From positions 6,062,522 through 6,126,521 of the forward strand of contig CM041202.1 in assembly GCA_023078555.1 (NCBI GenBank): DNA of 64,000 nucleotides, written 5' to 3'. Positions 16,902 to 36,900 of this stretch are shown piece by piece. How positions within the stretch are numbered: the first letter of the stretch is position 1; every line of letters starts with the position of its first letter. This DNA is from Ulva prolifera. Lineage: Eukaryota > Chlorophyta > Ulvophyceae > Ulvales > Ulvaceae. Made by a program: the position numbers and the translations under genes. The notes under the pieces were generated by a model. That model was not told the origin of the DNA. It saw only the letters and a program-made list of their open reading frames with translations, and did not search any database.

Positions 16902-17794
16902 CTAGCCGACGAGCATGGCCGCCGCGCCCGCCGCCGCCGCAACTGCAAGCCCCACATGCCCGCACACGCCCCCCTCACCCAGCCCCGCAGCGCTGAACTG
17001 CGAGCTGCTCTCAAACAGGTCGTCATCTTCAACACAGCGGAAGCGCCGCTGCCCCGGCGGCGCAGCCGCTGCGGAGTCACCGTAGTAATCGTCGGCGTAA
17101 ACGACGTAATCGCAGTCATCGTTGTCACCCTCGAAGCCCTCGTTGCGGAAGCGGCGCCCGCGGCCGGGGATGCGGCCGCCCGGCAGCGCAAAGAATGCCG
17201 GGCCGAGCCCGGGTGCGCGGCCGCGGGTCCCCCCTGCACGCTCAGCACTCCACCTGTGTCGGGCCTATTCGCTTGTGCATCACGGGTGCTGCCGAAGTTC
17301 GCACATTGCGCCACGACATGCATCTGCTGGTTCACCAGGGCAAGCTCCACAGGGAAACACTGCCGAATCGACGTGTAGAATAATACACAGCACAGCGAGT
17401 ACTGCTGTGCTTGAGGGAAGAGCAGTGAGCAGTGGGTGTGCGGACCTGAGGTTCCCCCGAACGAAGGTGACCCTGTGGTGGTGGGTGGGGAGAAGGTGGA
17501 GGGTGGGGAGGTGGACGGCCGCGAGCGGCCGGAGAAGCCGCTGCGGCCGCCACCGCCGCCGCCGCGCTTGCGCGCGGTCAGCGCGTGCGCGCTGTGCTTG
17601 ACGGCGCTGCCGCCGTCCCCGTCCACGCCTGGCGGCGGCGTGGTCGGCGGCGGCAACGGCGGCAGCTCTGCGGCGGCGCCGACCGCCGAGGCGAGGGCCG
17701 TGAGCAGGGCCACGGCGACCAGCGACGCGAGGCCGCGGGCGCTGAGGTGCTGCAGGCGCCTCCGGGAGCGCTGTGTGTGCTGTGTGCTGCGCAT
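16902..17794 (-). CDS. Small predicted secreted, possibly GPI-anchored protein
   Basis: A two-exon model encodes 226 residues: 17794-17446 joined to 17233-16902, with matching phase (donor CTCAG|GTCCGC, acceptor GTGCAG|GGGGG). Exon 1 starts at a real ATG and encodes a basic N-terminus, then the hydrophobic run GLASLVAVALLTALASAVGA, which looks like a signal peptide. A Gly/Ser/Pro-rich stretch follows. Exon 2 encodes a basic patch (GRGRRFRNEG), an acidic tyrosine-rich patch (DNDDCDYVVYADDYY) and a hydrophobic C-terminus (AVAAAAGAAAMLVG) that could be a GPI-attachment signal. The family is not recognised. The unspliced 307-residue frame through the intron is less convincing because it loses the acidic and hydrophobic segments. 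Confidence 0.5.
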
Positions 17795-20700
17795 GCTGCG
17801 GGGGCTCGTGCGGAGGCCCAGCTTGGAAGTTGGCGGTCACGACGTGGGCGCACGAGGGGTCAGGTGTGTTGTGCAGCGCAGCGCTGAGCGTTGAGATTGC
17901 TCGGGTCGCTCGCGGGCTGGGGTCGGCTCACGGACTGGTGGAGCGTGCTTGCTAGCAGGGGATCGCGGCAGAAGGCTTGCATACACGCTGTTGCTGCAGT
18001 CTCGTTGCGCTTGCCACGCCCGGTCTGCACGGCTAGGTTCAGTACCTGCGAGAGAAGCATGAACGTGTGAGAGCTTGCTATGATTATATCAGGTGCGGCT
18101 GCTGAGGCAGCTGTGCGGTGGGGCTGCGGATGGGCAGCCCGAGGGAACACTGACAGCCTGGAATCTGGCAGTCCAAGCTCTGCTGAAACTGCGGATCGCG
18201 ACGACGCCGGCGAGAGCACGATCTGTCTATCGCGCGCTGATGTAGTTGCTTGTGTGATCACAGAATGACGGATCGTGTTGCGGATCGTTGTTCTATAGGC
18301 ACCACGGGGCAACGAGCGTCAGCCAGTGATTCTGCAACGCCACGAGTATGGTCACCAGCGCACGCAGCTCCAGCGCACGCAATGGCACGCGTGAAATACA
18401 AGAGACAAAGTCCTCTTCAAGTAAGAATGAAGCAACGACACGCGGAAGGGTGGCCACCTCAGCAGAGGCGGAGAGACCGAGAGCGAGCTCAGACTACCAC
18501 AGCCGGCCAGAATCCACAGAGAATTAAAGCAGAATGAATGTCCCCTTTCCATCGGTGATAGTTTGTCATGGTCAATTGAGTGACTTTCATAAAGTCTGAC
18601 ATTCCCATCGTTGCGTCGATTTGACTTGTTGCGTCGATAGTCGAACCAAAAAAAAAACTTTGACCGACACACAACCTGCGTCACACTGCGTCAAACAGTA
18701 TCTTATGCACTGCGCTCCCGCAGATTCAAATCTGTGCACAGCGGTGCTTCTCAGTCCTCAGCGACCAGTCGATGGCCGTTTGACCGAACCTGAAGCTCTA
18801 CCTACCAGGCTTTCACCTACCGTAAGAAACCGGCATCACTATCGAGTCTCAAGACCTAGGAGCCTTTCTATAAACGGTACCGGCTAAGCAGTGGAAGGCG
18901 GCAGGCCCATAACCTGTTGTGATTCAGCAGATGACCTGTGCAGTACATATTACAGCACTCATATGCTTAGATCTATCTATAGATCTATCTGAACCGATAG
19001 TGTATCTTCGATACACCACATACTTATTGTCAATTGCATGTCACAGTGCTCTGCATGGCTGCCGCATCAACTGCGCAGCCATCATCGCTAAACACTCATC
19101 AGACGTGTCATGCATGCAGTACACGCTATGCCTGACACCCCTCACGCCATGATTATTTATGCGTGCACATGTACCACGGCTGGTACATCACAACACACTC
19201 ACGTCAAGTGGTGCTGGTTGAACAGCGATAATTCATTGCGTAGTCGGCAGTGCTGAATTTTTTTTTTGCGTGAACGAAAATGCTGTCGCGGCCGTCACAG
19301 CCAGATTCGCAGCACCTCCGTGCCCGTCAAAACGAAGAAGATATGAGATATTCATCATGCCACAACATGTCGACTGTAATTTGTAGACCGCGCAGGGATC
19401 ATTCTTGCCGTGGCTTCGATGAGCCGGTGTACGGCAGCGTACTTTCAGTCTCTGTGACGGAATAACACCACTGCCCGAACGACGTGTATTAATGATTTTG
19501 AGCGATGTGAGGCTGGTGTTTCTGGTATGTCTATGTATCTGCTGTGGCCCATTAGAATGCTGTGTTGCGTTGTTTGCAAGCTCACGAGGTGAAGAAACTG
19601 CACGCAAGTTCCGGCAGAAACAAACAGCAATGCCACCTGTTACTTTACTTCACTCAATGATTAAATCTGTGGTAGCTAAGCCGGTCTAGGCCGGCGTGGT
19701 GTCCGCTCTCCATGGCTGCATCACATACAGGCCGGACATACCCGCAAGACATTGGTTGACAGGTCGCTGAACATCTACGAGACATATTACAGTGTTTTTC
19801 GGGTGTTCTCGACCCACTGTGCTCACTGGGCGTGCGCTGGGCGCCAAATCCGCGTCCATGGGCGAAAACGGCATTTTGGCCGAAAACAGGCCTTTCCCTG
19901 GGCACTTTTCTATGTTAGGCCCAGGGACCGCCTGTGTGCATTCAGTATCTTAGTGTGAGTCTATAGACACCGCCCAGGGCCCTGGGCGATGTCTGAGTTG
20001 CTCGCGTTCCCGGTGGACGTGTGCATGGCCCGAGTGCAGACCCCCCTGTCTCGGTGTGGCAAGGTGAACCGTGCTTTGTTTGTGACGAATGCTCTGCGCC
20101 GGTTGAGTGTGGCGTTGTGCAAGGGGAATGCTCTTGTGCTCCGTGCGGGGCTTCAATCTTTGGCTGGCATCACCGGCCGAGCTGTGGTACGTGCTCGTGC
20201 CCGGCCTAGTGCCATGACTGCGTGAGTGGATTTGCGTGTGTATTCCTGGCAACGGCTCGCTTCCCGGCCTCTGTCCTTTGTAACTACATGTACACGCGAT
20301 TCTTGCCACACCCGGAATGCCTGATTGTATCTCGAGATTCTGCCAATCACGCACATGCGAGACCGCGCATTGTGGCCAGGCCAACACGCATGCATGTGTT
20401 GGTTGTCTGTTGAATTTGTGGTGTGCATTTCGAGCTCACGACCGCGCGTGCAAAGCCGATTCTTTCTAAGGGCATCCGATGGAGCTGCCCACATAGTCTG
20501 CTGCAGCATCCACCAGTCTCGGATGTGGGAGGGTGTCGAAAGTTGCAGAACGGTCTTCGACTCACGCTCCCAGTCCCGGACAAGCCCGCCACACAGTATG
20601 CAGCTTCCCGTGTGTGGCCATCGCTTTCTGGAAACAGCAACTGATAGTTAGATTCCGACGAGGGCTTGCCATCGCCGCCATGGCACGTCCTGTGATAGCT

Positions 20701-21735
20701 GTTCCGGGCGAGCTCGCAATGAACACAGCTGCTGTGCACCATCCCACATGGGCTGTGGCGGCTGCTGTCACACCTCGTTCTTCACGAAACGAGCTTGACC
20801 GTAAAGTCGATCCCGAACCGGAAGTTCGTCAGCGCGCAGTTTTGCCGGCCCGGCGGGGCGATCTTTGCATATGTATGCATGCACGCCACTGCCCCGGGAC
20901 CCTCATGAGGCCTCAGCAGGCCCACATCCAAATCGCTGCCCACGGTCGACGGACAGATTGTTAGAACCCACAAGTGAAGATCACGGAACGTCAACACGAT
21001 ACGGTGCAGCCTGTAGCCACCGATGTGCTGCTCTAACGACTGGCGCGAAGCTTTAAGCCAAGCAAATGGCCTCAAAATAGGCCACGACCCCACTACGTTA
21101 GACTGGCTTGATTACGAATTCATTGGTGAATGCGCACTCTCGGTGCATGTGCTGCAGTGAAATATTCTGTCCTCTGGTCGCTAGCAGCTGCTGAAAGTGC
21201 ACACCCTGCGGATGCATATAGTCATATGAAACGGAGGCTGATAAACAAAGTACAAAGCTTTACAGAGCATATGTCATGAGTCCACAGGCCTTGGATGTAG
21301 AGAGCTCTGCAGCCCAGACAGGCAGGCGTCCCGCGCAAGACGGAAGCCTGCGATTGGCCGACATATGCATCCTTCGTTCACCGAGGGGACAAGCGATCCT
21401 TGTCGCGTCTGAGTTCATCTGAGCAGACCACGGACGCGGGCACTCCGATCGCGCTCCCGGTCTCGGCCACCGACGTGGCATCAATCCTGCCTGGCGTGCA
21501 CTCAGAATGTGGCGGGAAGCTGCATCGAGGCCTTCGCTGGGGCGTTTCGGAGGCGGCCTTGCCAGAACCACGCGTCGCAACGCGCTGGCGACCACCTCCC
21601 GCGATCATCGCACGTCTCAATGCCGCACGGGCACTCGCCTCGAAGGCAGAAATGGGTGCCCGGCGATGGCGATGTTGCTGTATGTTTTACAACCCCTTCG
21701 GCTGTATGTGCACGTGTTACAACCCCTTCGGCCGG

Positions 21736-21787
21736 CATATGTGGTCCCTTTAACTTGGAGCTGTCAATGTCCAATAGGATACGGCTC
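21736..21787 (-). repeat. 51-bp dispersed repeat, copy 1
   Basis: This sequence recurs at 26552-26603 with about six differences. On the minus strand both copies are open and read RILLDID-S-GPHM with a few changed residues, so it may be the end of a mobile-element ORF. Two direct copies of TACAACCCCTTCGGC lie just upstream. Confidence 0.55.
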
Positions 21788-22126
21788 AACTTCGAAGATC
21801 CTCGAGGCTTGTAGCGCAGCCGGGGAAATGCCGCCTGCCAGGTTACTAATGTAACTTACATTCACCCACCCGATGCCACCCGATGTCCGCACCCGCGCGC
21901 CCGCTCCGAGGAGTCAACACGTGCACCCGGACGAGGGGCCGTCCAGGCCGCCCGCCACCGTGCGCGCACCCAGCCGCCACCGTACGTGCACCCGGCCGAG
22001 GGGCCATCCAGTGTGCAGCCGTGCGCTCCATATGCATATTATATCATGCTCAGCCTGGAGTCGAAGATTGCCGCCGCACAGAACACAACATTAATGCCCC
22101 GGCCGCGGCCAGCACGGCTTGCCGTC

Positions 22127-22210
22127 GTGTGCGTGTGCGTGTGCGTGTGCGTGTGCGTGTGCGTGTGCGTGTGCGTGTGCGTGTGCGTGTGCGTGTGCGT
22201 GTGCGTGTGC
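22127..22210. repeat. (GTGTGC)14 hexamer microsatellite
   Basis: About fourteen perfect tandem copies of the hexamer GTGTGC. Confidence 0.95.
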
Positions 22211-22538
22211 ACATCAGTACCGCATCCGCACGTGTGTGCAGCTGGCCCTGCGTGCTGCCTGCAGGAGCACGCAGAGGGGCAACGCACTCGGTGCAACAGA
22301 ATGCTGCAGCAGGGCGTTCAGAACTGAAGTTATCAGGTGTGCATGAGGTGCATGAGTGCTTCACAAGCTGCACGGGTTCCTGGTCAGAGCTCGGCCGCAG
22401 GTGGACAAGATCCGTGCTCAAGGTCATGGCACAACCGAATGCCACCGCCAGGTCCAGCACAGCCTGTAGGCGACTGCTTTTCATTCGTGGACTGCAGGCC
22501 AGGCAGCCCCGGCCGTGCTGCGCAGTATATAGTGATTT

Positions 22539-22593
22539 GATTCGGAAGAGGACCTTTGTTTCTGTTTGTCTGTTACCGTCCACTCTTCTGTCA
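22539..22593 (+). repeat. Retroposon-tail family, distant copy
   Basis: Reads GATTCGGAAGAGGACC...TTACCGTCCACTCTTCTGT. It is the same family as at 1.3-3.0 kb, about 20 kb away, so the family is dispersed rather than a local array. Confidence 0.5.
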
Positions 22594-23593
22594 CGCTAGA
22601 ATATATGTACCGATGCCTATAATATTCTAGTGTTACAGAATCCTGTAGTCTACACTATTAATATAAGAGTTTAGACGACAGGAAGAGCGACTCTGGCGTG
22701 GCTCTGACATGGTGCTTCGAAAAGACCATGGTGTTCTGCTCTTTGTGTATGCACCAGCCCTTCTGTAGGCCGCCTAGATGTGTGGCGTGGGGGCGGACCT
22801 GGATAGCAGTCGGTCTCTGAAGGGAGGCGCGCCGGCCACTGAGGAGGTGTAGGGGGCCTTGGCCGAGGCAGCGGGAGGCCACGCTGACATCTGTGGGCCG
22901 CTGCAACAGCTGTTGAGCTCGGTGCTGGGGGCGCAGAGGCGGCGGCCGCACAGCGGGAGCTGCTGGTTCGAGTTGTGGCTTCGGATTCCTGCTGCAGATT
23001 CTACGCGCACTGGTCAACGCAAGCAGGCGGCGTCACAGCAGCACCGCCGTACAACATGCTGCGGGCAAGCTCGTCTGGCTTGCAAGCTGTGCTGGCGGGT
23101 CAGTGCCGGATGCTTCGCCATCTGGCTGCGTGTTTGTGCGAATCATATGCTCGAGGCGTTGAGTGGATCCGACATGTGCCTGCCGCAGGTGTGGTATGAG
23201 GACGAAGGCGAAGGCGTGGGCAGCATCGCTGAAACATGAAGCAGCTCAAGATCATGTGCATGTGTGTGGCCAGAGCGTGTGGCCATGTGGACACGCATGC
23301 ATGGCGCGCACCAGGCTTCACTTACCTGCGCCCGAACTGAGAGCATGCAGACCCACAGCGCACGGCGCCGCGCGCCCTTGCAAAGCTTAAGGGATTGTGC
23401 CGGGGATCGATCGTAGCGGTAGGCAGGTGAACACACCCGTATGCATGGGCGTCATGTCTGCTGCCGCTCGGCCATGCCTGCCTGCCTCTTTGCACGTCTC
23501 CATGCACAGGGCTGTGGCCCATGGGCTGCTTGGCCTGCGCAGGCGCGCGCGCCCCGCTATGCCCACCCCCCTTATAAGAACGCATCTGCATGT

Positions 23594-23695
23594 CAGTGTT
23601 GGGTCATCGGGCCCGATCACATGGAACAATTCCGAATACCCAGGTCTGTTTTTTGGTTGGCAGCCCTGGAAATGCTGTAAGGCGACCCAACACTG
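23594..23695. mobile_element. hAT-type MITE, copy 1 (102 bp)
   Basis: The ends are inverted: CAGTGTTGGGTC and GACCCAACACTG. The element is flanked by the 8-bp direct repeat CTGCATGT at 23586-23593 and 23696-23703. An 8-bp target duplication is characteristic of hAT transposases. There is no coding capacity. A second copy of equal length lies at 36500-36601. Confidence 0.85.
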
Positions 23696-24838
23696 CTGCA
23701 TGTCACCTTCTTGCCATATGCACCTGCATTGCAAGCACATGCTTGTCAGGTACATCCTTCTTGTGCTGGTCCTTTACACCTCACATCCGGTGCTGACACG
23801 TACGCCGACAACTGCGCGCCCGGACGTCCTGTGTGAATGTTGCCATTGTGCCACTGTGCATGCAGTCCCGCACTCGTGCGCACATGCATTGCAATGTCGT
23901 AACCGGCGACACGCACTCTTACGCGTCGCGATGTCTCGGGTGTGCGTCATGTGTCCGCGGTACATCCAGCTTCCGCGTACCACTGCCTGCGCACGGACAG
24001 GCAAAAAATCGACCCAGGATCACGCGATGCAGCCTCGTGCCTGATGAAACAAGTGTTCCTCCTGTCCTGCTATCGGGCGGTCTGATTTGCCATATGTGGC
24101 AGCGCAGATACACAGCAGGTGCTGCCGTAAGTCCGTGCTCAACGCTTCCGGGCTTTGCTGCTGCCCGCCCGTCCCTGGCTGCGATATCTTATGACCAATT
24201 TCTACATCAATTCAGAACTTCAGGTTTTTGTCGTCTTTGCTGCGTAGCTGGGCCTAGTGTACATTTTGTAAAGAAGATCCGCCAAACGGCCCGAGATGAA
24301 CGTGAACGTGGCGGACATGGTTCCATCGAACCCCGTCGCCCTGGCGGTTACCTGTGCCAAGGCAGCTGTTATGCTTTATGATTTGTATTCCTCGCGTGGA
24401 GATAAGCTGCGAGCATTCGCAAGGTGCTTCTAACCGTACCCCAGGCATACGAACTTGCAGCGAACCAGGGACCGATAAGGAACCTGCATACTGCATGCCA
24501 TATGAACGCTAGTAACGTATCCAAAGACATTGACGAGATCGCTCATGCGTCTGCTTTGCTGCGTGTGGAGATCAGCGTGGGAACATGTCGATCGTGTTCT
24601 AGTATTCTCTGCATCATCTCGGAAAGCGCTTGCGCGACGATTTCGCAGCAGAACCGCATTATCCTACATATTTTGTCACTTCTTGCCGCTCTGTCTGGGC
24701 GTATTCTACACCGTTGTGCAAAGATCACAGCTACGCTCCAACCGCGTGGCTCGCGGTGTGAGCAGCTCCAGGTGAGGCATGCCATCCCCCGCATCACACC
24801 GCCGATCCGCCAGCAGAACCTGAGGTCAGTATCTGGGA

Positions 24839-27800
24839 ATGTCTTGCAGCTACATGCAAAATGTCGGGATTGCGCTGGAGGGCATGGGCGAGCGGCTGAC
24901 GGGCAACGCGGTGCCCATCCTGCAGCAGCTGCAGCTCGTCCTGGAGCGGGCCACAAGCAAGCTGGAGAAGTACAGCAACCGCAACAAGGCGCAGGTCGCG
25001 TGCTATGCGTACTCCGAGGCGGTGCGACTGCCTTCACCTCTCGGCGCCACGCCAGCTTGGGCCTGCACGACAGACCTGCAGCAGCGCTGTCACTTGTCAC
25101 GACAGACTTGAGGTTGCCACAGCCACGGTGGCCTGACACACGCCCCCTCACGAACACGTCCAGCTCCTACTGATGTATTCCGTATGAATTTGTGCTTTCA
25201 TTGCTGCGCACGGGTGCTACCTGCCTCCCCATCTCAGGTTGTCACGCACGCGCTGAGCGTTGCTCATGGTAGCTGCGCATGTGCATGGTAGCTGTGCATG
25301 TGTCCATTCGTTGTACGATCTCTCCAGGCGGAGGGCCTCAGATCTGCCGCACCCATTAGTCCGTGCAGGGGCCAGCCTCTGCATGCATGCCTGCTTCTGC
25401 GTGCATCGCGCCGTTCAGAAAACAGTGCTGCGCACCGCGCTGCTCTTCAACGTAACGCTGGTGTCGGGTGCACGGGTAGGGAGGTGGGCCGCACGGGCGG
25501 CGGCTAGACGCCACCAACACCTGCACGCTCCTCTAAGCAGCGGTGGACGTGTGGCGGCTGTGTGGATGAATTAACATGCATGGCTGCCACGCAGAGCCAC
25601 ATCAAGAAGCTGACGGACCAGACCGCGAGCCTCGTGTCCCTCCTGCAGCTCACGCTCACCGGCCAGAACAACATGCATGCCATGCAAGCGGAGCTGCAGG
25701 CGCAGCGCGCCGACCTGCGCGCCCACGGCGCCGCGCCGGAGGTGCTCGCGCACGTGGCGACCGTCGAGGCGGCGGCGGGGGTGATCGCGGCCGCCGAGAG
25801 CCCCGCCGACGTGCACGCTGCGCTGCAGCACGTCGAGGACAGCCAGATGGCGCTCGCGGAGCGCAGCGTGGAGCAACTGGCAGGCGTGCACCGTAGCATG
25901 CAGCACGCCCTCGCCGACGTGCGCCCCGGGCCGCCGCGGTGCTCGTTTGATGCCGGTGCTCTGCCATGCACCGGGTTGACCTGTTGGATCGTGTCGCCTG
26001 CCGCTGTGGCGGTGCTGTGTGTCGTGAGGTAGCCATCAGCAAGCCTCTTCCCGCGCGCCGTAGCCCCACCCTGCCACGTGGCACCTGGCTGCTTTGATGT
26101 TCACCGTGCTGCTGCTGTGAGGGCTGCGCTTCACGACTGCTCCCAGGGTGGCAGCTGCAGTATTACAGGGGCCCCGCCACAATGGGATGTTGAAGAAGTG
26201 TGAACGAGCACGAGCCACGACTAACACAGGACATGAACATCTCTCGAAGCAGCCACCACACACCCGGTGTAACAGCTGCCCAGGGCGTCGGTTGCGCGTG
26301 CAGGGCTTCGGCGACCTGTCGGGCAAGATGATGAACGTGCAGAGCAGCCAGCAGGAGCTCACGGCGACGCTCGCGGAGCTGCAGGGCGAGCTCAAGGCAG
26401 AGATGGCCGGCCTGCGGCAGGAGATCAGCCGCCAGACGGGCATCGTTGGCGACAAGCTGCAGGGCATCGAGGACGGCCTCGCCTTCGTGTGCCCCCCCGC
26501 GCACAGCATCCATAGCACGCACAGTATGCACAGCATCCATAGCAACAACAGCATATGTGGTCCCCTGAACTCGGAGTTGTCAATGTCCAATAGGATACGG
26601 CGCAGTAGATTCAGATTTACTTTTACTTTACACGCCGCCGCTGCTGCTCTGATGCGGTGTGATGTGGTGTGCGTGTGGGGGCCGACCTGTGCTGCGCTGG
26701 CTGCCTGGTGATGCTGTGGTTTGTGGAGACAGACTGTCTGCCATGAACGGTGGCACGAAGCAGCGTTGCAACCCGGCGGCCGCGCACAGACGACATCATT
26801 GCGGCCGCTATCGAGCCGCTGCGCATGCCCCATGCGCGCATGTGTCAGGTCGAGGCGGGCGCTTTCTGAGGCTTGCAAACACTCGGCAATGCAGCGCCCC
26901 TGCTGCGCACGCTGAGCGGCACCGTACATGGCAGTATCTAGAATCTGGGTCCACAAGGTAGTACTCACGTACTCGCTCTCCCTTCTGTGTGTGCTTTCCG
27001 CCGCCATACATGGCAGCTCTCAGAACCTGGGGCTACTAGGTAGCACGTACTGACTCCCCCGCCGGTGCCGGTGCAGGTGCTGGATGAGCTGCAGCGCAGC
27101 GACCCCGGGCGCGACTGCAGCACGGCGGGCCTTGGCGTTAAGACGGCCGCGGAGACGCTGATGGAGGCGCTGCGCAGCGGCAAGATCCAGTGCACAGGGT
27201 GCCCGGTGGAGGGTCTGCCGTACACCGCGGCGGGCGCGCTGCGGCCGGTGAAGCTCGAGCACTGCGGCTGCACGATGTCGGCGCACGCGGCCGACAAGTG
27301 CGCCGCGGCCAAGCGCTGCCTGCTGTGCCGCAGGGTGCGCCGCCGTGTGCTGTGTGTGCTGGGCGTGCCGGGCGCTGCCGTGCTTGCTGCCTGCCGTGTA
27401 AAGTAGAGTTCGTCTGGACCTGTGTAGCTGTATCCATCAGATGACAACTCCGAATGAACGGCACCACATGCCGAAGGGGCAACCCATCTGCAAACGCCCC
27501 TCAGACATCCACACGCAACTCACAGGGCCTCCTCCTGTTTGACCTGGTGGGTTGTGCTGTGCACGCTATGCATGCTGTGTGACACGGCTGCAGGGCTGCC
27601 GCCCCTGCTGTAACGGCGTGCATGTGTGGCTTGCGTGCTGGGCGTGCTAGGTGTGCTGCGCGCTGAGTGACAAAGCACGCGGCGGTGCAGGTGATCCCCA
27701 AGGACAAGGGGGGCTACCAGGCGGACAAGCAGATCATCCGGGTGGCTGAGGCGGAGTCCTGCGGGATCAGGGTGCCGCGGATCGACCCGGCACGCATCAC

Positions 27801-30800
27801 GCGCGGCGAGCGCATCGGCCGCGGCGGCGAGGGGGTCGTGTACAAGGCCACCCTGCAGGGCGTCGGCGAAGTCGCACTCAAGTGCCTGCCGCTCGCGGGC
27901 ACCTCGGAGCAGGATCACGCCCAGGCGCGCTGCCCGCGCTGTGCCCCATGCATGCCGCAGCACGCAGCAACGCACACCGGCTGGAGCACAAGCAAGCACA
28001 GGTCGCCAGGAGGGCACATCAAAGAACCATGCTCGTTGTAACCCTTTGCAAGCCACAGCACACCCCACACAGCACGTGTGGGGCCCTGCGTTCTGCTGCC
28101 AGGCAGTGAGGTTTTGCTTGAAGAGGGCTGTGCCACGGCGGCGTCACAAGAGCGGCAGCACACCCCCCCGGCCGTGTGTGTGCAGGTGACGACGATGCTG
28201 ACGTCGACATACCTCGCGAGCACGGCGACGCCGCTTGTGTGCCGCCTGCACGGCGTCGTGTGGCAGCCGGACGAGGTGTGGATCGTGATGGAGCTGTGCG
28301 TGGGCACCGCGCTCGACGTCGTCATGCGTGCGCGCGCCGCCGACGCCGCCCTGCAGGGCCTTCCCGCCGCCGACGTCCTCGTGCTCGCGATGGAGGTGTC
28401 CGAAGCTCTCAGCGCGCTGCACGAGCGCGCGCGCACGCTGCACCTCGACCTCAAGCCCGAGAACGTCCTTGTGACCTCCGAACATAAGATCCGCCTGAGC
28501 GACTTTGGAATCAGCCGGCGTCTGCCGACGCGCATAACGGCCAAGACGATGACGGGGATATCCGCCGGGACGCCAGGGTACGCTTCGCCGGAGCAGATGC
28601 TGAGGCGGCGCGGCACGGCGCGCTCCGACGTGTACTCCCTCGGGGCGTCGATGATCTTCTTCGCGACCGGGCTTCATCCCTTCGAGGGCAGCGGCGACAT
28701 GTCGTTCATCGCCGCGCAGCTCGCGACCGGGCAGCCGATGCCGGTGCCGGACGATCTGCAGCCCGAGCGCCTGCGCAGCCTCGTGCAGCGCATGGTTCGG
28801 ATCGACGAGGCGAAGCGGCCGACGCTGCACCAGGTGCGGCAGGAGCTGCACCGTATCCACCGCAAGCTCGACCGGCAGGGCGAGCGGCCGCGCTTCGTAC
28901 AGCCATACTGGGGCACCATGGCCACGACAGAGCCGCCGGCGCCAGTCCACGCTGACGAGGAGGCGCCCGAGACGCAGCGCGCGCCGCAGGTCGCTGAGCC
29001 GTCGAAGGAGGTGGCCGTGTCGACGCCCGCTCCGTACACGGCGCCGCAGGCGGCCGCGCCCGCGGACCCCCCGGAGGGGGAGATGGCGCCGTTCAACACC
29101 GCGCCCGAGATGACACCGTTCAGCGCAGAGGCGGCGTATATCCCCCCCGGCGCGGCAGATCCGGCCCGCCGCTCCGCTGATCCGCCGGCCGCCACGCCGC
29201 CGCCGGCCGCTCCCGCAGTTCCCGCCGCTCCAGGCGCACCCCCGTCAGTGCCGCTTTCAGCCACTCCGCAGGCCTCGGTCGGGGCCGTGCCTCCTCCCGT
29301 CGTTGACCCTGCACGCTACATGCATGGCAGCGCCTTTGCCAGCGCGCCGTCGGGGCAGGCCCCGGCCTTTCCCGCTGCACACAGCGGCAGCGTCAGCGGG
29401 AGCGGCCCGGTGCCGACCCCCGCCACCGGGTTCACCTCGGGACACTCTGGGAACGCGCCAGTGGCACCGCAGCACAGCGTGCAGGCCATGCCGCAGCAGC
29501 AGTACCAGCAGCAGTATGCCCAAAGCATGCCGCACGCGCATGCCGCGCCACAGCACAGCGTGCAGCCGCATTTCCAGACAGCCCCGCAACACGGGGTGCT
29601 GCAGTACCAACTCGCTCCCCAGAGCAGCCTGCCGCACTACCAGACTGCCCCTCAAAACGGCGCGGCGCCATTCCAGACGGCCCCCGGCGGCGCGCCGATG
29701 GCTGCCGCACACCCTGGATCTTATGCAGCCCCACAGGTGGTGCGCTCCCTGGTTGCCTCCGCCCAGGCATGCGTACCGCTACGTCCGAGCCTGGGAGCTT
29801 TTGTATGCAAGGAGAGCATGCGTCCTGGGCGGCCCCTCCCAGCACGCACCCACGCACCCCAGCCATCACCCCCTCACCACCCTGCACTTGTCCACTTGGA
29901 GTGGCACAACGCAGCACAGCACACACAGCACACCACAGCACACAAGTCACGGCACAGCACGCACAGCACAGCATAGCGCGCTGACGGGGGTCCGCGCGGT
30001 GCAGGCGCTGCCCGGGCTGACGCTGCCGCAGCTGTTTGACACCGTGAACCAGCAGCTGCTGGGGCAGCAGGTGGACCTCGCCAACGCGTCGTACGCCATG
30101 CCGATGCTCTCCAAGGTCCGCAGCCTCCTCAACAAGACGAACAACCCGATCGCGCGCCTCCCGGACATGAACCCCCACCTCCGAGTGCGCCCCCTTTCCC
30201 TACTGTGTCCCTTTTAGCCACTTCTAGCCACTTCTAGCTTCGCATGATGGTACACCGGCTGTCTTCATGATATCGTGCCGTGCTATGCTGTGCTGTGCTG
30301 TGCATTATGGTTCGGTGGATGTGCAGGCGCAGCCGGTGAACATGGGCGCGCGGGGGGCAACCACGGTGTGGACGCTGGACGTCGCGCCGGTGGGCATGCG
30401 CGCGCTGACGCTGTGGGGTGGCAACACGACCTTCGTGCGGGGCGCACTCGCCGCGCCGGCGCAGGCCTTCCTCGTCTTTGGCCCCGAGTGCTCCAACGTC
30501 GTCTTCCGCGACGTCTCGATCAAAGGCGCGCCACCCCTGCGCTACCCCACCCCTGCGCTACCCCACCCCCCCTCTTCAACAGCCCTGTAAAACCGGAGTC
30601 ACGCAATAGCCAGTTTGCATCTCATCAGCCATTTTCTCATTGGACCGTGTCAATTCTGCGAGGGGGGGGCACATGCTGCGCTAGCACAGGATGCCCTGCA
30701 GGGCCGCGTGTGCGTGTGTGCGTGAGTGGCGGTGACGCACAGGGGGGGGTGCCGGTGCAGGCGGCCGCGTGCTGTGCCACGGCCCGACGTGCTCCGTGCG

Positions 30801-32454
30801 CTTTGAGAACTGCCGCTTCAGCCGCTGCGGCCTCGTGGCCATCGGCGGCGCCACCGTGACCATCACCAACTGCCTCTTGAAGCACGCCGACGTCGGCCTC
30901 GTTGCCAACGGCCCCGGCACGAACCTCACGGTGCGCAAGCTTGAAGCCGTCGACTGCAAGCAGGCGCGCTCCCCCCCCCCCCCTCCCACCTGAAAAGCAT
31001 CAGCTGTACTGCGCGCGACATTGGTACAGCTGTGTATGTTTTGGTGTTGCGTCCGCACCCTTCTCATGCGACTGCTCTTTCTGCTCCGCGCCCATGGCGG
31101 GAGTATGCACCGCTGCCACCGGGACCGGCATCGTGCTGACGATGCAAATTCGAGGAGGTAAGGCTATCTGGCGTGCAGGTGCTGCTGGTCGACGGCTCCG
31201 CGGCCGGGGACGTGGAAGGCCTGCAGGCGAAGGGCCACAGCATCACCGGCGCCGAGGTGCGGGGGCCCGGCTCCAGCCTCACTCTCGCGCGCTCGACCAT
31301 CGCCGAAGCCGTCGCCACCGACCCCACCGCCGCGGACCTCCCGCCCGGCTGGTCCGTGCGAGCCGTCCACGCGCACCAGGGTGCCACCGCCACCATCTCC
31401 GACTGCACGCTCGCGGCGTGCTCCACAGGGTTTGCGGCGGCCGACGCCGGCACGACGGCGACGCTGGAGCGGTCGTTCCTGTGCGACAACGCGCGCAGCG
31501 GCGCGGCGGCCGCGGGCGGCGCGGCGGTCACCCTGAAGCAGTGCTCGTGCAACGCGGCGGCGGCGCAGCAGTGCATGGGGGCCGAGGCGGGGGACGCCGG
31601 GACGGCGCTGCACCTGCAGGCCTGCAGCATTCAGAACAACGTGTCATGTGGCGTGATGGCGTACAGTGGCGCTGCGGTCACGATGTCCGGCTGCGTGTCG
31701 CAGAGCAACGGCACCGCAGGCTGTTTCGCACAGGCGCGCTCTCTACGCCCAGTCTCGCCTGGAGGTCATGGGTCCATGCATATGTGTGTGTGTGTGTGTG
31801 TGTGGGTACAGCATGCACGGTAGTGATGCAGGCACAGCATGCACGGTAGTGACGCATGCCTGCGTGTGCACGTCACGCAGCGTGCGGTGGCGAGGAGGCC
31901 GGGGGCCGCACCAGCGCTGACGATGCACGCCGCAGCACTGAGCCCACTGCACACATTCCGCCGTTGCTGTTGCGGCACCGTTGCTGCCGCAGATGCCCCT
32001 GTGCTATGGAGGGATGTGAATGGTCGCATCTGGCCTAATGCAAGCGCGCGCGTGCTGCTCTGCTCTCGCCGCTGCTGCGGCTTGGTAGCACACGGCAGCA
32101 TGTGCATCACAGTGTGCATGATTGTTGGTTGTTGCGTTCGCATGGCCGCAGGTGTGCATGGCCGCGGCTGACCGCATGGCGCGTGTGCAGGACGCGGGGA
32201 CGATCGCGATGAGCGGCGGCTGCCGCAGCGAGATGCAGCCAGGGCACAGCGTGCAGAGCGGCGGCAGCGTGACGGCGACGGAGGACTGCGTGTTTGTGCA
32301 GCCGCCGCCGCAGCCGCAGCCGCAGCCGTGGCCGCAGCAGCAGCCGGAGTACGGCCAAGCACAGGCGCAGCCGCCGCAGTGGGCGGGGCAGGACCCGGCG
32401 GCCGCGGGGCAGCCCCAGGTGCAGTACGGACAGGCACAGTACATGCCGCAGTAG
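24839..32454 (+). CDS. Large protein kinase with helical N-terminus, RING-like Cys cluster and parallel beta-helix
   Basis: Eleven exons, all phases consistent, encode about 1,368 residues: 24839-24994, 25595-25918, 26304-26486, 27077-27334, 27691-27924, 28186-29736, 30005-30184, 30327-30525, 30761-30963, 31179-31733, 32191-32454. Residues 1-221 are amphipathic helix/coiled coil, resembling the bundle that precedes the kinase in MLKL-like proteins (inference). Residues 260-305 hold C-x2-C, HCGC and CLLC, a degenerate RING pattern. The kinase domain (350 to about 610) shows GRGGEGVVYK, VALK (K371), HLDLKPEN (471), DFG (491) and SPE. No alpha-C glutamate is evident, possibly because of an unplaced exon. 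A Pro/Ala/Gln-rich linker follows to about 900. From about 963 to 1330, Gly-spaced rungs (GAAVTMSGC, GTIAMSGG, GSVTATEDC) indicate a right-handed beta-helix. Four introns have GC donors. The start ATG is the first in frame; extra 5' exons are possible. It is probably a signalling or scaffold kinase; substrates are unknown. Confidence 0.78.
26552..26603 (-). repeat. 51-bp dispersed repeat, copy 2 (inside a kinase-gene intron)
   Basis: The same core as 21736-21787 is located in the intron 26487-27076. Just upstream is a short array of GCACAGCATCCATA-like units. Confidence 0.55.
31809..31860. repeat. Tandem duplication in the last kinase-gene intron
   Basis: Two copies of CAGCATGCACGGTAGTGA lie in tandem after a short (GT)n run, within the intron 31734-32190. 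Confidence 0.7.
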
Positions 32455-33933
32455 CTGCCAGGGGGGCATGCATATGCCGCCTGTTGCATCTGGGCATGCC
32501 GGCTGATGAGCCCTCTGTGTCTGTGGCCATGCCCCCTCTGAAGAGCATGGCGCAGGTTGAAGTCTGGATTGGCTGCGCGTTGTTCTGGGATGTGATCGGG
32601 CGTGCACACGCATGTCATGCGCGGCTGATGCCGTGTGCGGGTGGCGCGGGCGCGCCCCCGCCGGGGTTGCCGAGGGTGCGCAGAGCGCCTGTGTGTTGCA
32701 CGGGGCAGGTCAGTGACAGGACATATCGCTGTTCCTGGGACTGTGCGGGTATATCGACACAGACCGTGCCCATCTTGTGTCGTGGCTGCCGCACGCTGTG
32801 TGGTCACTGTGATGCTGGACTTGTGCCGGTTGTCGAGTGGCTGGTGAGGTCTGGTGGGACGGCAGGTGGAGATGTGCCAGGACGCACGTGCGCGCAGTGC
32901 AGATACCGTCTGCTTTGCTAGAGTTTTTCCTCTCAAGTATGCATGAATGATCGTGTGCTGCTAGATCTATGTCCGTGGCTGCATATTGCCACTTTTGCTA
33001 TAGGGATATACGGTGGGCTAGTAGCGTTACTGCTGGCGCCAGCGTTGATACTGCTTCAGTATACTGCTTCAGTGTGCTACCGGCGCACGTGGCCCTCCTA
33101 GCTGTTGGCAGTGCAGCTCGTTTTGAAGACGGGCGCTTGGAGGGGGTGGGGAGCAGATGGCAATGTCCTTGACCACGCAATCGAGGTTGGGAATGCTCCC
33201 TATCGATCGAATCCTTCGTCGATGACACCGCAGTATATATACTGTATACAGCTGCGAAGCATTTACTGCTGGAACTGTCACCACCTCTGTTGGCAAGACC
33301 GTACGAAATCTTGAGCGCTCCCCTACACAGTGTACGGTATACACGGATTTTGTTTACACAATCTGCTGTACGAGTGTGTACGGAACGCGTTGGATCGGTC
33401 GACGCTCGCACTGTGATCACCGACGCCACATGCATGCATTGGCCTGGCGGGCATGCTCGGGCCTGAGATTCGGCCGTTACAGGAAGGATGCTGGCACGTT
33501 GCGAACGGCTGGAACAAGGTAATGCACTGGCCGTTTGGCTTGCGAGGCTTGCCGGCGTGTGTGCCCGAAGCCTGCTGTACCCGCTCCCCCCTCAGATAGA
33601 GTCACCACCAGAAGTCAACCTGACGCTGCCGAACGTTTTTTACTCAGCCCTTCACTGGCTATATCATATATCGATTCCGAAATGTCAACATAGTCCTGGT
33701 CGACTGACTTTTTGTGCTGCAAGGGCGGTTGTGTGCCGGTTGCCCTGCGCTTAGAGTGAATCGCGTGGCCGGAGCCTACATCTGGACATCGGTCGGCCTC
33801 AATGTGGAGAGGCAGCATGCATCCATGCTATGGATGATGACTGCGGCTGGAACGGCCAAGCCTGGTGCCAAGCGGCCCAAGCTCTCGTTGAACTAGTGTG
33901 CAAAGGGCTGTGCTGGTTTACTGCTGCGTGAAG
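32455..33933. other. Spacer between kinase and glycosyltransferase genes
   Basis: No supported gene. It presumably contains the 3' end of the kinase transcript and the promoter of the next gene, which has the same orientation. Confidence 0.4.
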
Positions 33934-36900
33934 ATGCCACCCAGGAGCCGTCACCAGGATGCCTCCCCTGCATCGAAGTTCCTCGGCATGCGTATCCACT
34001 ACTGCGTCGGCGCAGCGATCGCTTTGGTTTGCGTAGTCCTGGTCGCACTAAAGCTTCCCAACAGACATGTGCGGCCTGATCATACTGTATGACCGGTACA
34101 GAACCTATCTGTACATCTAATCTGAATGAGGCAGTGGTATGTGCGCGATTAGGCAGTGCGTTGAGCTGTGTCGCATGAAATGTTGCTCAGGTCCCTGTAG
34201 TTGTCGCTGCCTGTTATTCGACGATCTTCGCTTGACGTCCCCACTGAACACCACGATAAAATTTCAGGAGATGTCACATGGAGACTACCCCCGGGTGCCG
34301 ACGCAGTCTTCAAAGGTACGAAGATGATTCCTCCCGGGCTTCAACAATAGAAGCGGCACTTGCACTGCCTTCTACAGACAGTGTATATGTTGTCATAGAC
34401 TTGAAGCGCTTACAATGCGGCTCTCGAATCCACTGAACACAAGCTGCGGGGTACTGTTGCCGCAGTACATGTTCCTTTGTCAGCAGCGCCATGGACACCT
34501 CTCTGCTGCAGGAACAAGCCGCTTTGCTGCCTGAAGATGTGGATATCAACCTTAGCGCTGACAGATCTTCACTCCAAGAAGAATTGCCATTGATGAACGC
34601 GTCCGTTCCGAACAGTCAAGATGGCTTTGCACAAGGCAGCGAAGCAGCGGAGGAGGAGCATGTTCCAGAAAGATGGCTTCAGGACGTGACTTTAGACTGC
34701 TGGACGCAGAACCGAAGCACGATGGCTGGTGCACCCCCGTGTGGCACCGAAGGGGAAGTGGAGGGCAACGCCAAGGTGCAGCTTCAGCAACCCAGTGGCT
34801 CAAGTGTTCCTGTACACACGAATGCCCTCCTCACGCCGACGTCCGTGTATCAGTCTAAAAAAAGACCCTGCATGTTCGTACCGCCCGGCTGCGGCTGCGT
34901 CCCTTGTCCTGCCCTGGACCTCCTCTGCCTGCAGGCCTGTAGATCGCCGTCCTGATCCTGCACCACATGGGGAGCTTGCATCGACCTGCTCTGAACATAA
35001 ATAGGCTCTCAGTCCTGCCACCGTGGCCGCGCTGTAGCATCCAAAACATGTCCGACGCCTGTGTTTGTGCCGGATAACGCCACGTGTTCTGCCGCAGCGG
35101 CATGTGCAGTTGTTGACACATCACGCCATGAATCTACGATCCGCACCAGAGGCCCGCTAGGCATGACTCAGCGATCCGAGGCACTAAATCGCTACGCTGT
35201 TATCCCCCGGCGGCTGCATAAACAAAACCGCCCCTCGCGTCGCTGCGGCTGCTGCCCGCGCGTGGCGCCCAGCACGTGGACGGGGGTTTTCGCATCTGCC
35301 CAGGCAGTGTTACGGCGGTGACTGCAACACGCCCCCCAGCAGTTCTCAGCAGGCGTCGCCGCAGCCGCATGCATACGTTCCGCCGCCGCCGTGCAGGTGG
35401 CCATCATGTTCCTCGTGAAGAGCGTGATCCCCACCGAGCCGATCTGGACGGCGTTCATCGCGTCGGCGGCGGAGCTGAAGCTGCGGCAGCCCGTGCCGCA
35501 CACGCGGCCGCGGCCGCCGGCGCTCCTGCCGGAGATCTCCCACCCCGAGGCGCACGAGACGTGCTGGAAGCACGGCGGCCCGATGACCAACTTCGGCGTG
35601 CCCCCCCGCAAAGAGTTCCAAGGTGCGGCCTGCGCCGTGCTTGCCAGCCGCGCCGGGCATGGCACATCCGCCTGTGCGACTTGCGGACCAGCTCCTCTTC
35701 GCATCCTCCTGCGGTCCGTCGTGACCGCCACCGTCCTCTCACTCCCGCGTGTGTGGGGTCTGAGCCTGTCGCAGCTGTGCACCTGCCAACCACGGCAGTG
35801 TCGGTGATGCATCACGAGCTGCACGCTGTGCGGGGCGCCACCCCGAGCGCCACTCGCAACCTCACCTTCTGCTGCGCCGCTGCGTCCGCAGCACGGCCAC
35901 AGGCCTGCGGCCGCAACATGCATGCTCGGCAGCGGCGGGCGTCTCGTGTCGTGCACATGGCACGCCCACGTTCACCGCCTCCTGGTGCACTCGACCTTTT
36001 GGCCCGCTGTCCAGTGATGCCGTGCGGCGGTGACACAGGGCGGGGGTGCAGGGAAGGTGCCGCCGGCGGTGCACAACGTGACGGGCTGGCTGCAGCGCAG
36101 CTGCCGCACGGCGCGCACCGCCGCGGAGATGTACCGCGAGCAGGACCTCTTCTCCTTCTACGTCCACCGCAGCGTCGGCGTGCCGCCGGCGCCCGAGGAC
36201 AGCGTCTTCGCCGGCCGCGACATCGCCACGCGGTGCGCCCGCCCCTGCGCCTGCTGCGCTGCCCTTCGGTGATGCGCGTGCACGGGGGGGGGGGGGGTCC
36301 ACGCCTCTGTGTGGGCCCCCACCAGGCGAACCCCTGCGCGGACGCAAGCTGCTGCCGTGGCAGCTGCGTAGAGCGAAGCGAGACCTGTCTGAGTGCAATC
36401 AGTGCCTGACCGCAGCCGTGTTGGGCCGGGTTGTTGCCTGACGGTGTGGAGGGTGACGGGGGCGGCGGCAGAGCGAGCGAGGGCGTGGGGCGTGTGCAGC
36501 AGCGTTGGGTCATCGGGCCCGATTCTATAGAACAATTCCGAATATGCAGGTCTAGTTTCTGGATGGCAGCCCCGGAAACGCTGCAAAGCGACCCAACACT
36601 GGTGTGCAGGATCAAGGCGGAGTTTGCGCAGCCGAGCCTGATCTCGGCGTACAAGCTGCTGCTCGCCGAGGCGCTGCAGGACCGCCGCAACACGATGTTC
36701 CTGCTCGTGTCGGAGACGTGCATCCCGCTGCACCACCCGGCGCTGCTGTGGTCGCAGCTGCTCGCCGAGGCGCACGTGTCGCGCGTCGCGGCGGGTGAGT
36801 ACAGCGGCGTGCGCTGGTCGGAGCTCATGGCGACGGAGCACGTGCAGCGGCGCCACTTCCTCAAGGGCGCGCAGTGGCACACGCTGACGCGCATGCATGC

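Follow-up and report, generated by a model that had tools for sequence, protein, structure and literature searches.

The window, a 64,000-nucleotide stretch of Ulva prolifera contig C7 (C7:6062522-6126521; GC = 0.594), contains on its + strand a gene whose eleven recovered exons predict a helical N-terminal part, a RING-like Cys cluster, a protein kinase, a Pro/Gln-rich linker and a C-terminal parallel beta-helix. Comparison with paralogous sequences strongly supports that kinase and beta-helix are encoded by one gene, and in two arrays of family members the beta-helix changes faster than the kinase beside it. We see an even chance that this gene, one of a many-copy family, encodes an intracellular recognition kinase whose beta-helix acts as a variable sensor in immunity or allorecognition.

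The gene family and its exon structure

The genome searched comprised 44 contigs (88.9 Mb), numbered here with the prefix C, and the paralogue and other stretches taken from it are labelled L040-L071. It contains 38 exon-level matches to the chlorophyll a/b-binding family; one of these matched best, in the PDB, two LHCI chains of entry 9vfj and then Lhcb and other chlorophyll a-b binding proteins, which suggests a plastid of the green lineage. Sequences similar to the RING-like/kinase N-lobe part were found at 27 places at E ≤ 7.1e-6, window included (ten each on C9 and C1, two each on C36 and C4, and one each on C2, C3 and C7), the next place being C8:5570762 (E 0.0049); the 16-kb contig C36 may duplicate C9. 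Family arrays were located at C1:12.26-12.45 Mb, at C9:0.05-0.32 Mb and at 1.1 Mb on C9, with other members elsewhere. Downstream DNA was read for 18 of 28 places (the window, L049-L054, L059-L063 and L065-L070), and in 16 of these 18 members the kinase part was followed by a cap, a beta-helix or both, the L051 stretch stopping inside the helix and L067 apparently shifting frame there. Moreover, open frames in paralogues spanned most junctions: from coiled coil through RING-like part to N-lobe in L053 (534 amino acids), from RING-like part to a degenerate C-lobe in L049 (782), from C-lobe to cap in L052 and L053 (376 and 388, respectively), and from cap to helix in the second module of L054 with L071 (359). 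The chance of a 380-codon open frame is about 1e-4 at the stop frequency of this gene's introns. No paralogue frame bridged the first helical exon and the coiled coil, and an in-frame intron may precede the cap, since an acceptor-like AG sits before it in L052 and L053. The recurring order and the bridging frames strengthen the one-gene reading, in agreement with the single protein proposed by the sequence-only reading, and we infer a single transcript.

Eleven exons of compatible phases were joined from 24850 to the stop codon at 32452-32454 on the + strand, as follows (positions within the window):

24850..25021, +: first exon found, helical segment YMQNVGIALEG...LEKYSNRNKAQVACYAYSEA (acceptor tcttgcag/C, donor GCG/gtgcga)
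25595..25918, +: helical/coiled-coil region (aligned with three paralogues; codon scan)
26304..26486, +: coiled coil continued (splice model, codon scan)
27077..27334, +: helix, then RING-like Cys cluster CTGCPVEGLPY...LEHCGCTM...KCAAAKRCLLCRR (Rtf2 RING model)
27691..27924, +: last stretch of the RING-like part, then the kinase N-lobe with its glycine loop GRGGEGVVY and VALK; GC donor
28186..29736, +: remaining kinase (HLDLKPEN, SDFG, SPEQ) and Pro/Gln-rich linker (Pfam Pkinase, codon scan)
30005..30184, +: cap part 1 (LPGLTLPQLFDTVNQQL), matched to the paralogue 'SGIHTVEDL' cap by position and pattern only
30327..30525, +: cap part 2 and initial beta-helix strands; GC donor
30761..30963, +: beta-helix rungs; GC donor
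31179..31733, +: main beta-helix rungs, 185 amino acids (Pfam Beta_helix; genome-wide match C7:6093886-6094260); GC donor
32191..32454, +: final rung, Pro/Gln tail and stop codon

Donors were GT in six of the ten introns and GC in four (6 GT-AG, 4 GC-AG), and acceptors read TGCAG in ten of eleven cases and CGCAG in one. The GC donors (gcgcgc), each paired with a TGCAG acceptor, open the introns after 27924, 30525, 30963 and 31733, and GC-AG introns may be frequent across this genome. Third-position GC ranged from 0.85 to 0.97 across the eleven exons, vs. an overall GC of 0.62 in the introns. At a threshold of 16 bits, a codon-usage scan over 17000-36500, which was trained on the same exons and is thus not independent, recovered all eleven as + strand segments, with no additional + segments in 21478-35378 and weaker mirror segments on the - strand. 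The eleven phase-consistent exons of the sequence-only reading, and its order of helical, RING-like, kinase, Pro/Gln and beta-helix parts, were borne out.

Its start codon had to be given up. The ATG at 24839 lies 11 bases before the first-exon acceptor, and in all four paralogues L051-L054 an AG plus one base directly precedes the residue matching the exon start, the sequence upstream of this acceptor differing among them; the equivalent exon ends SEx/gtgcg in all four. Since the acceptor is conserved, the exon at 24850-25021 is internal and the real start lies farther upstream. A candidate helical first exon (MQTAAAAAV...) was suggested in L051, and a tblastn search with it (E ≤ 5) gave, within the window, matches only at E 1.7 or worse; no coding segment was seen by the codon-usage scan in 21478-24862. 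The first helical exon of L051 (C4:6440000-6447999) apparently shifts frame internally with respect to its paralogues, possibly reflecting a pseudogene or an assembly error. A 19-amino-acid exon at 25419-25475, with exon 1 ending at KAQ, was considered and rejected as false, being ruled out by the SEx/gtgcg boundary of L051 and L052. The whole-protein Pfam scan used an early model with the ATG at 24839 and this false exon, and the parts were rescanned with corrected alignments; in two family alignments the L053 row lacks one residue where two exons meet.

Predicted parts of the protein

The kinase part matched Pfam Pkinase (PF00069) at 5.8e-38, with 131.2 bits vs. a cut-off of 31.7, and the motifs GRGGEGVVY, VALK, HLDLKPEN and SDFG were all intact, so that the earlier description of a complete-looking kinase is confirmed; judging from these motifs, the enzyme is probably active.

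The beta-helix part also exceeded its Pfam cut-off (Beta_helix, PF13229, right-handed beta-helix: 4.8e-14, 52.7 bits vs. 25.9), which supports the parallel beta-helix initially read from Gly-spaced rungs. The joined window helix reached 6.1e-16, and the model matched all five members of the helix alignment (best 3e-18), two of which (from L040 and L044) had been picked by beta-helix similarity and show no kinase. A profile of five beta-helix stretches matched a tail fibre chain in the PDB at 1.9e-6. The single-sequence structure model of the beta-helix exon was poor (predicted local distance difference test, pLDDT, 48.1; predicted template modelling score, pTM, 0.45) and consisted mostly of strands. 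Its 52 PDB matches were all weak, none with E ≤ 0.001; pectate and alginate lyases, a mannuronan epimerase, phage depolymerases and ice-binding proteins were among them, several of these being beta-helical proteins.

The Cys cluster is plausibly RING-like but degenerate, as first proposed. The Rtf2 RING model, the only RING/U-box model matching the window member, scored below its cut-off there (E 0.051, 13.4 bits vs. 27.4), and matched four of seven family members (best E 0.0027). A PDB search with this part retrieved RNF8 RING chains at 0.052 and 0.065, and the single-sequence model of the exon was poor (pLDDT 43.5).

The N-terminal part is helical by its pattern, and the suggested likeness to MLKL appears weak at most. 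With corrected sequences, in a query that lacks the upstream exon, MLKL_N matched the window protein only, out of four members (E 0.0071, 16.3 bits vs. a cut-off of 27); with the early gene model it had matched at 0.055, also under the cut-off. Coiled-coil models equalled or exceeded it (DUF1664 in three of four members, best 0.00074; Sec3_CC 0.0012), and SesA gave a weak match (0.0047) in the N-terminal part of one family member. Two PDB profile searches with the N-terminal part retrieved no MLKL chain at E ≤ 10, and a search of the same genome with MLKL_N found two places, the window not among them. At the second-best of these (0.406), C5:4529505-4529678 on the - strand, residues 2-52 of the N-terminal helical query match C5:4529526-4529678 with 49% identity (E 2e-7). 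Neither a RING-like nor a kinase match was listed alongside, and it is perhaps a related N-domain within another protein.

NB-ARC, NACHT, LRR, F-box and USP were absent from the six Pfam matches of the protein (E ≤ 10). No 19-residue segment reached a mean hydropathy of 1.6 (maximum 1.55) in the model, from which the upstream exon is absent. Ten stretches of viral contigs fitted the pattern of the kinase exon, and none was confirmed as a relative.

Evolutionary rates and genome setting

In order to compare the parts, the ratio of nonsynonymous to synonymous rates (dN/dS) was obtained for six members of the C1 array, two of which are identical in the beta-helix. The kinase exon gave 0.00-0.20 and the RING/N-lobe exon 0.13-0.37, with 0.16-0.80 in the cap and 0.49-1.71 among beta-helix copies of first choice. 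Within this array, L060-L062 carry two cap-beta-helix modules in succession behind one kinase; second helix copies compared with each other gave 0.90-0.93, and first vs. second copies 0.45-0.52. Minimal counts of nonsynonymous and synonymous changes among five C1 members were 128:61 in the beta-helix, 14:42 in the kinase and 38:48 in the RING exon (Fisher p 1.4e-8 for beta-helix vs. kinase, 1.9e-4 for beta-helix vs. RING exon). The same trend was observed for five members of the C9 array, among them the frame-disturbed L067, where the ratio of nonsynonymous to synonymous differences (pN/pS) was 0.11 for the kinase, 0.14 for the RING part and 0.43 for the beta-helix, and 0.41 for three second copies. 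In two sets from C1, the five residues before turns showed pN/pS values of 1.37 and 2.75, vs. 0.62 and 0.70 elsewhere, with strand anchors that were chosen after the alignments had been inspected; the observed share was reached by 4 of the 221 circular shifts in one set and 24 of the 225 in the other, and tests counting independent changes gave p 0.13 and 0.012. An out-of-frame window row in one alignment was disregarded.

Beta_helix had 118 matches genome-wide, 55 of them at C2:0.13-0.98 Mb, mostly in frames of approximately 770-1080 amino acids. No Pkinase match was listed near this C2 array, a weak absence as 118 of 763 candidates were scored, and no kinase was seen by eye in two of its stretches (L057 and L058). 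A RING-like peptide upstream of the L057 helix was found at seven places on C2, itself included; for five of these, a listed helix match follows on the same strand at a distance of no more than about 3.5 kb. As these peptides precede helices, a second, RING-beta-helix group that lacks a kinase appears to exist, and the C2 array is possibly a second, kinase-less beta-helix repertoire. On C8, a kinase at 5598787 accompanies a helix at 5594684-5596460, outside the list used to score co-location. NB-ARC had 33 matches in the genome, with clusters at C4:7.32-7.53 Mb, C6:2.31-2.61 Mb and C1:4.68-4.88 Mb, and the family member at C4:7375115 sits inside the first of these.

Possible function and relation to known systems

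The intracellular recognition kinase that we favour would work as follows. The C-terminal beta-helix would present the variable recognition surface and bind the ligand; the helical/coiled-coil N-terminal part would oligomerise the protein or keep it off; ligand on the beta-helix would free the kinase, by release or by clustering; and the output would be phosphorylation, perhaps together with ubiquitin transfer through the RING-like part. The setting that fits best would be recognition of non-self or altered self, as suggested by the tandem arrays, the fast change on C1 and the one NB-ARC neighbourhood. The protein is probably cytosolic, since no membrane segment was found. Intracellular site, ligand binding, activation and immune or allorecognition role are all inferred, and the sensing kinase of the sequence-only reading is retained as a best guess.

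Several observations weigh against this proposal or narrow it. No beta-helix was found in the DNA read for L065 and L066, two stretches that share 98.6% identity. By Pfam alone, only seven of 28 kinase places had a same-strand Beta_helix match no more than 8 kb downstream, in a test that used 42 of the 118 Beta_helix matches and omitted most of those on C2. When five other array helices were scanned, one scored above the cut-off, one below, and three matched no beta-helix model; in L053 and the C9 members, helices were assigned by alignment and by eye, and Pfam recognised none of those scanned. The C3 copy, L049 (C3:8851500-8859999), retains its beta-helix and lacks the kinase catalytic motifs (Pkinase 23.5 bits, under the cut-off); because these are lost, kinase activity is presumably not preserved in all members. 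In the C9 array, pN/pS of the beta-helix (0.41-0.43) stays under 1, and the strands predicted to be variable failed there (0.75 vs. 0.42 and 0.0 vs. 0.42, five columns each). Synonymous differences in this array were 0.33-0.43 in the helix vs. 0.08-0.14 in kinase and RING exons, approximately 2-5 times higher, so that gene conversion of the 5' half, of which the lower values are a possible sign, or unequal ages may partly explain the contrast in rates. In addition, the same genome also encodes NB-ARC genes, and the absent upstream exon could encode a signal peptide.

Other explanations were weighed against the same evidence. The beta-helix might instead be fixed and serve, as in F-box beta-helix proteins, as a docking site or scaffold through which substrates reach the kinase and the RING-like part, the copies varying in their substrates rather than in non-self recognition. 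The C2 group, in which long beta-helix frames go together with a RING-like peptide and no kinase is seen, would suit such substrate adaptors; we nevertheless consider this unlikely, as dN/dS values around 1 or higher in recent C1 copies are unusual for fixed adaptors, and no F-box is among the Pfam matches. A sensor for cell-wall glycans or osmotic stress, rather than for non-self, would agree with the weak fold matches to pectate and alginate lyases and to mannuronan epimerase, and polysaccharide handling is common among beta-helix proteins. Fast change on C1 is unexpected if the self ligand is constant, however, and with no membrane segment found this role seems hardly likely.

An MLKL-like executioner, in which the N-terminal bundle disrupts membranes once the kinase switches, is quite unlikely in our assessment: the weak MLKL_N and SesA matches (SesA being, we assume, related to HeLo-type domains) and the resemblance of the N-terminal exon to the C5 place with its own MLKL_N match speak for it, but MLKL_N matched one of four members, coiled-coil models did as well or better, neither the PDB profiles nor the MLKL_N search of the genome pointed to MLKL at this locus, and a RING-like part separates the bundle from a kinase with active motifs. 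That the kinase and the beta-helix belong to two neighbouring genes is very improbable given the conserved order, the junction-bridging frames and the compatible splice phases, even though the kinase frame runs on past its donor as far as a stop that ends at 29976, which makes a shorter product possible, and two of the 18 members lack a helix in the DNA read.

Compared with known systems, the recognition kinase proposed here would be a variant among modular kinase receptors, and there is a genuine possibility that it represents a new receptor class. Plant and animal MLKL consist of a HeLo bundle, a brace and a (pseudo)kinase, the bundle being joined to the kinase through brace helices only; the window protein resembles them in its helical part ahead of the kinase and its weak MLKL_N match, and differs in the inserted RING-like part, the active kinase motifs, the C-terminal beta-helix and the lack of a significant HeLo match. 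Plant U-box kinases (PUB) likewise combine a kinase with a U-box/RING-type part in one protein, whereas here the order is reversed, with the RING-like part before the kinase, a beta-helix is added and no USP was among the Pfam matches. FBXO11, an F-box beta-helix protein, shares a ubiquitin-linked type of module and a parallel beta-helix, but the window family has a RING-like part instead of an F-box, an added kinase, many copies and fast change in one array. The Cys cluster itself follows the CP..GLPY ... CGC ... C-x2-C pattern of the Rtf2 RING, matched weakly in some members, with the window member well under the cut-off and the other Rtf2 parts absent. No kinase-beta-helix fusion in this order was among the literature matches listed (titles and abstract openings), algal proteome annotations lying outside that scope.

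Immune receptors described for green algae include a few NLR-like genes (PMC7145615) and some receptor-like kinase classes (PMC10834447). A kinase family with a conserved signalling half and a changing beta-helix would be a concrete candidate for a receptor repertoire in these organisms. In its boldest form, which we hold only tentatively and at clearly less than even, the proposal is a new class of intracellular recognition receptor that uses a beta-helix where NLRs have LRRs, with two arms: helical-RING-kinase-beta-helix proteins at no fewer than 27 places, their beta-helix diversifying under selection, and the RING-beta-helix proteins of the C2 array. NLRs and LRR receptor kinases are immune receptors encoded in tandem arrays with a faster-changing repeat domain, and the window family is like them in joining a conserved signalling part to a faster-changing repeat domain and in its tandem arrangement; it differs in having no NB-ARC or LRR Pfam match and no visible membrane segment in the window protein, the LRR being replaced by a beta-helix. 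If true, this would place a beta-helix in the role that LRRs play elsewhere.

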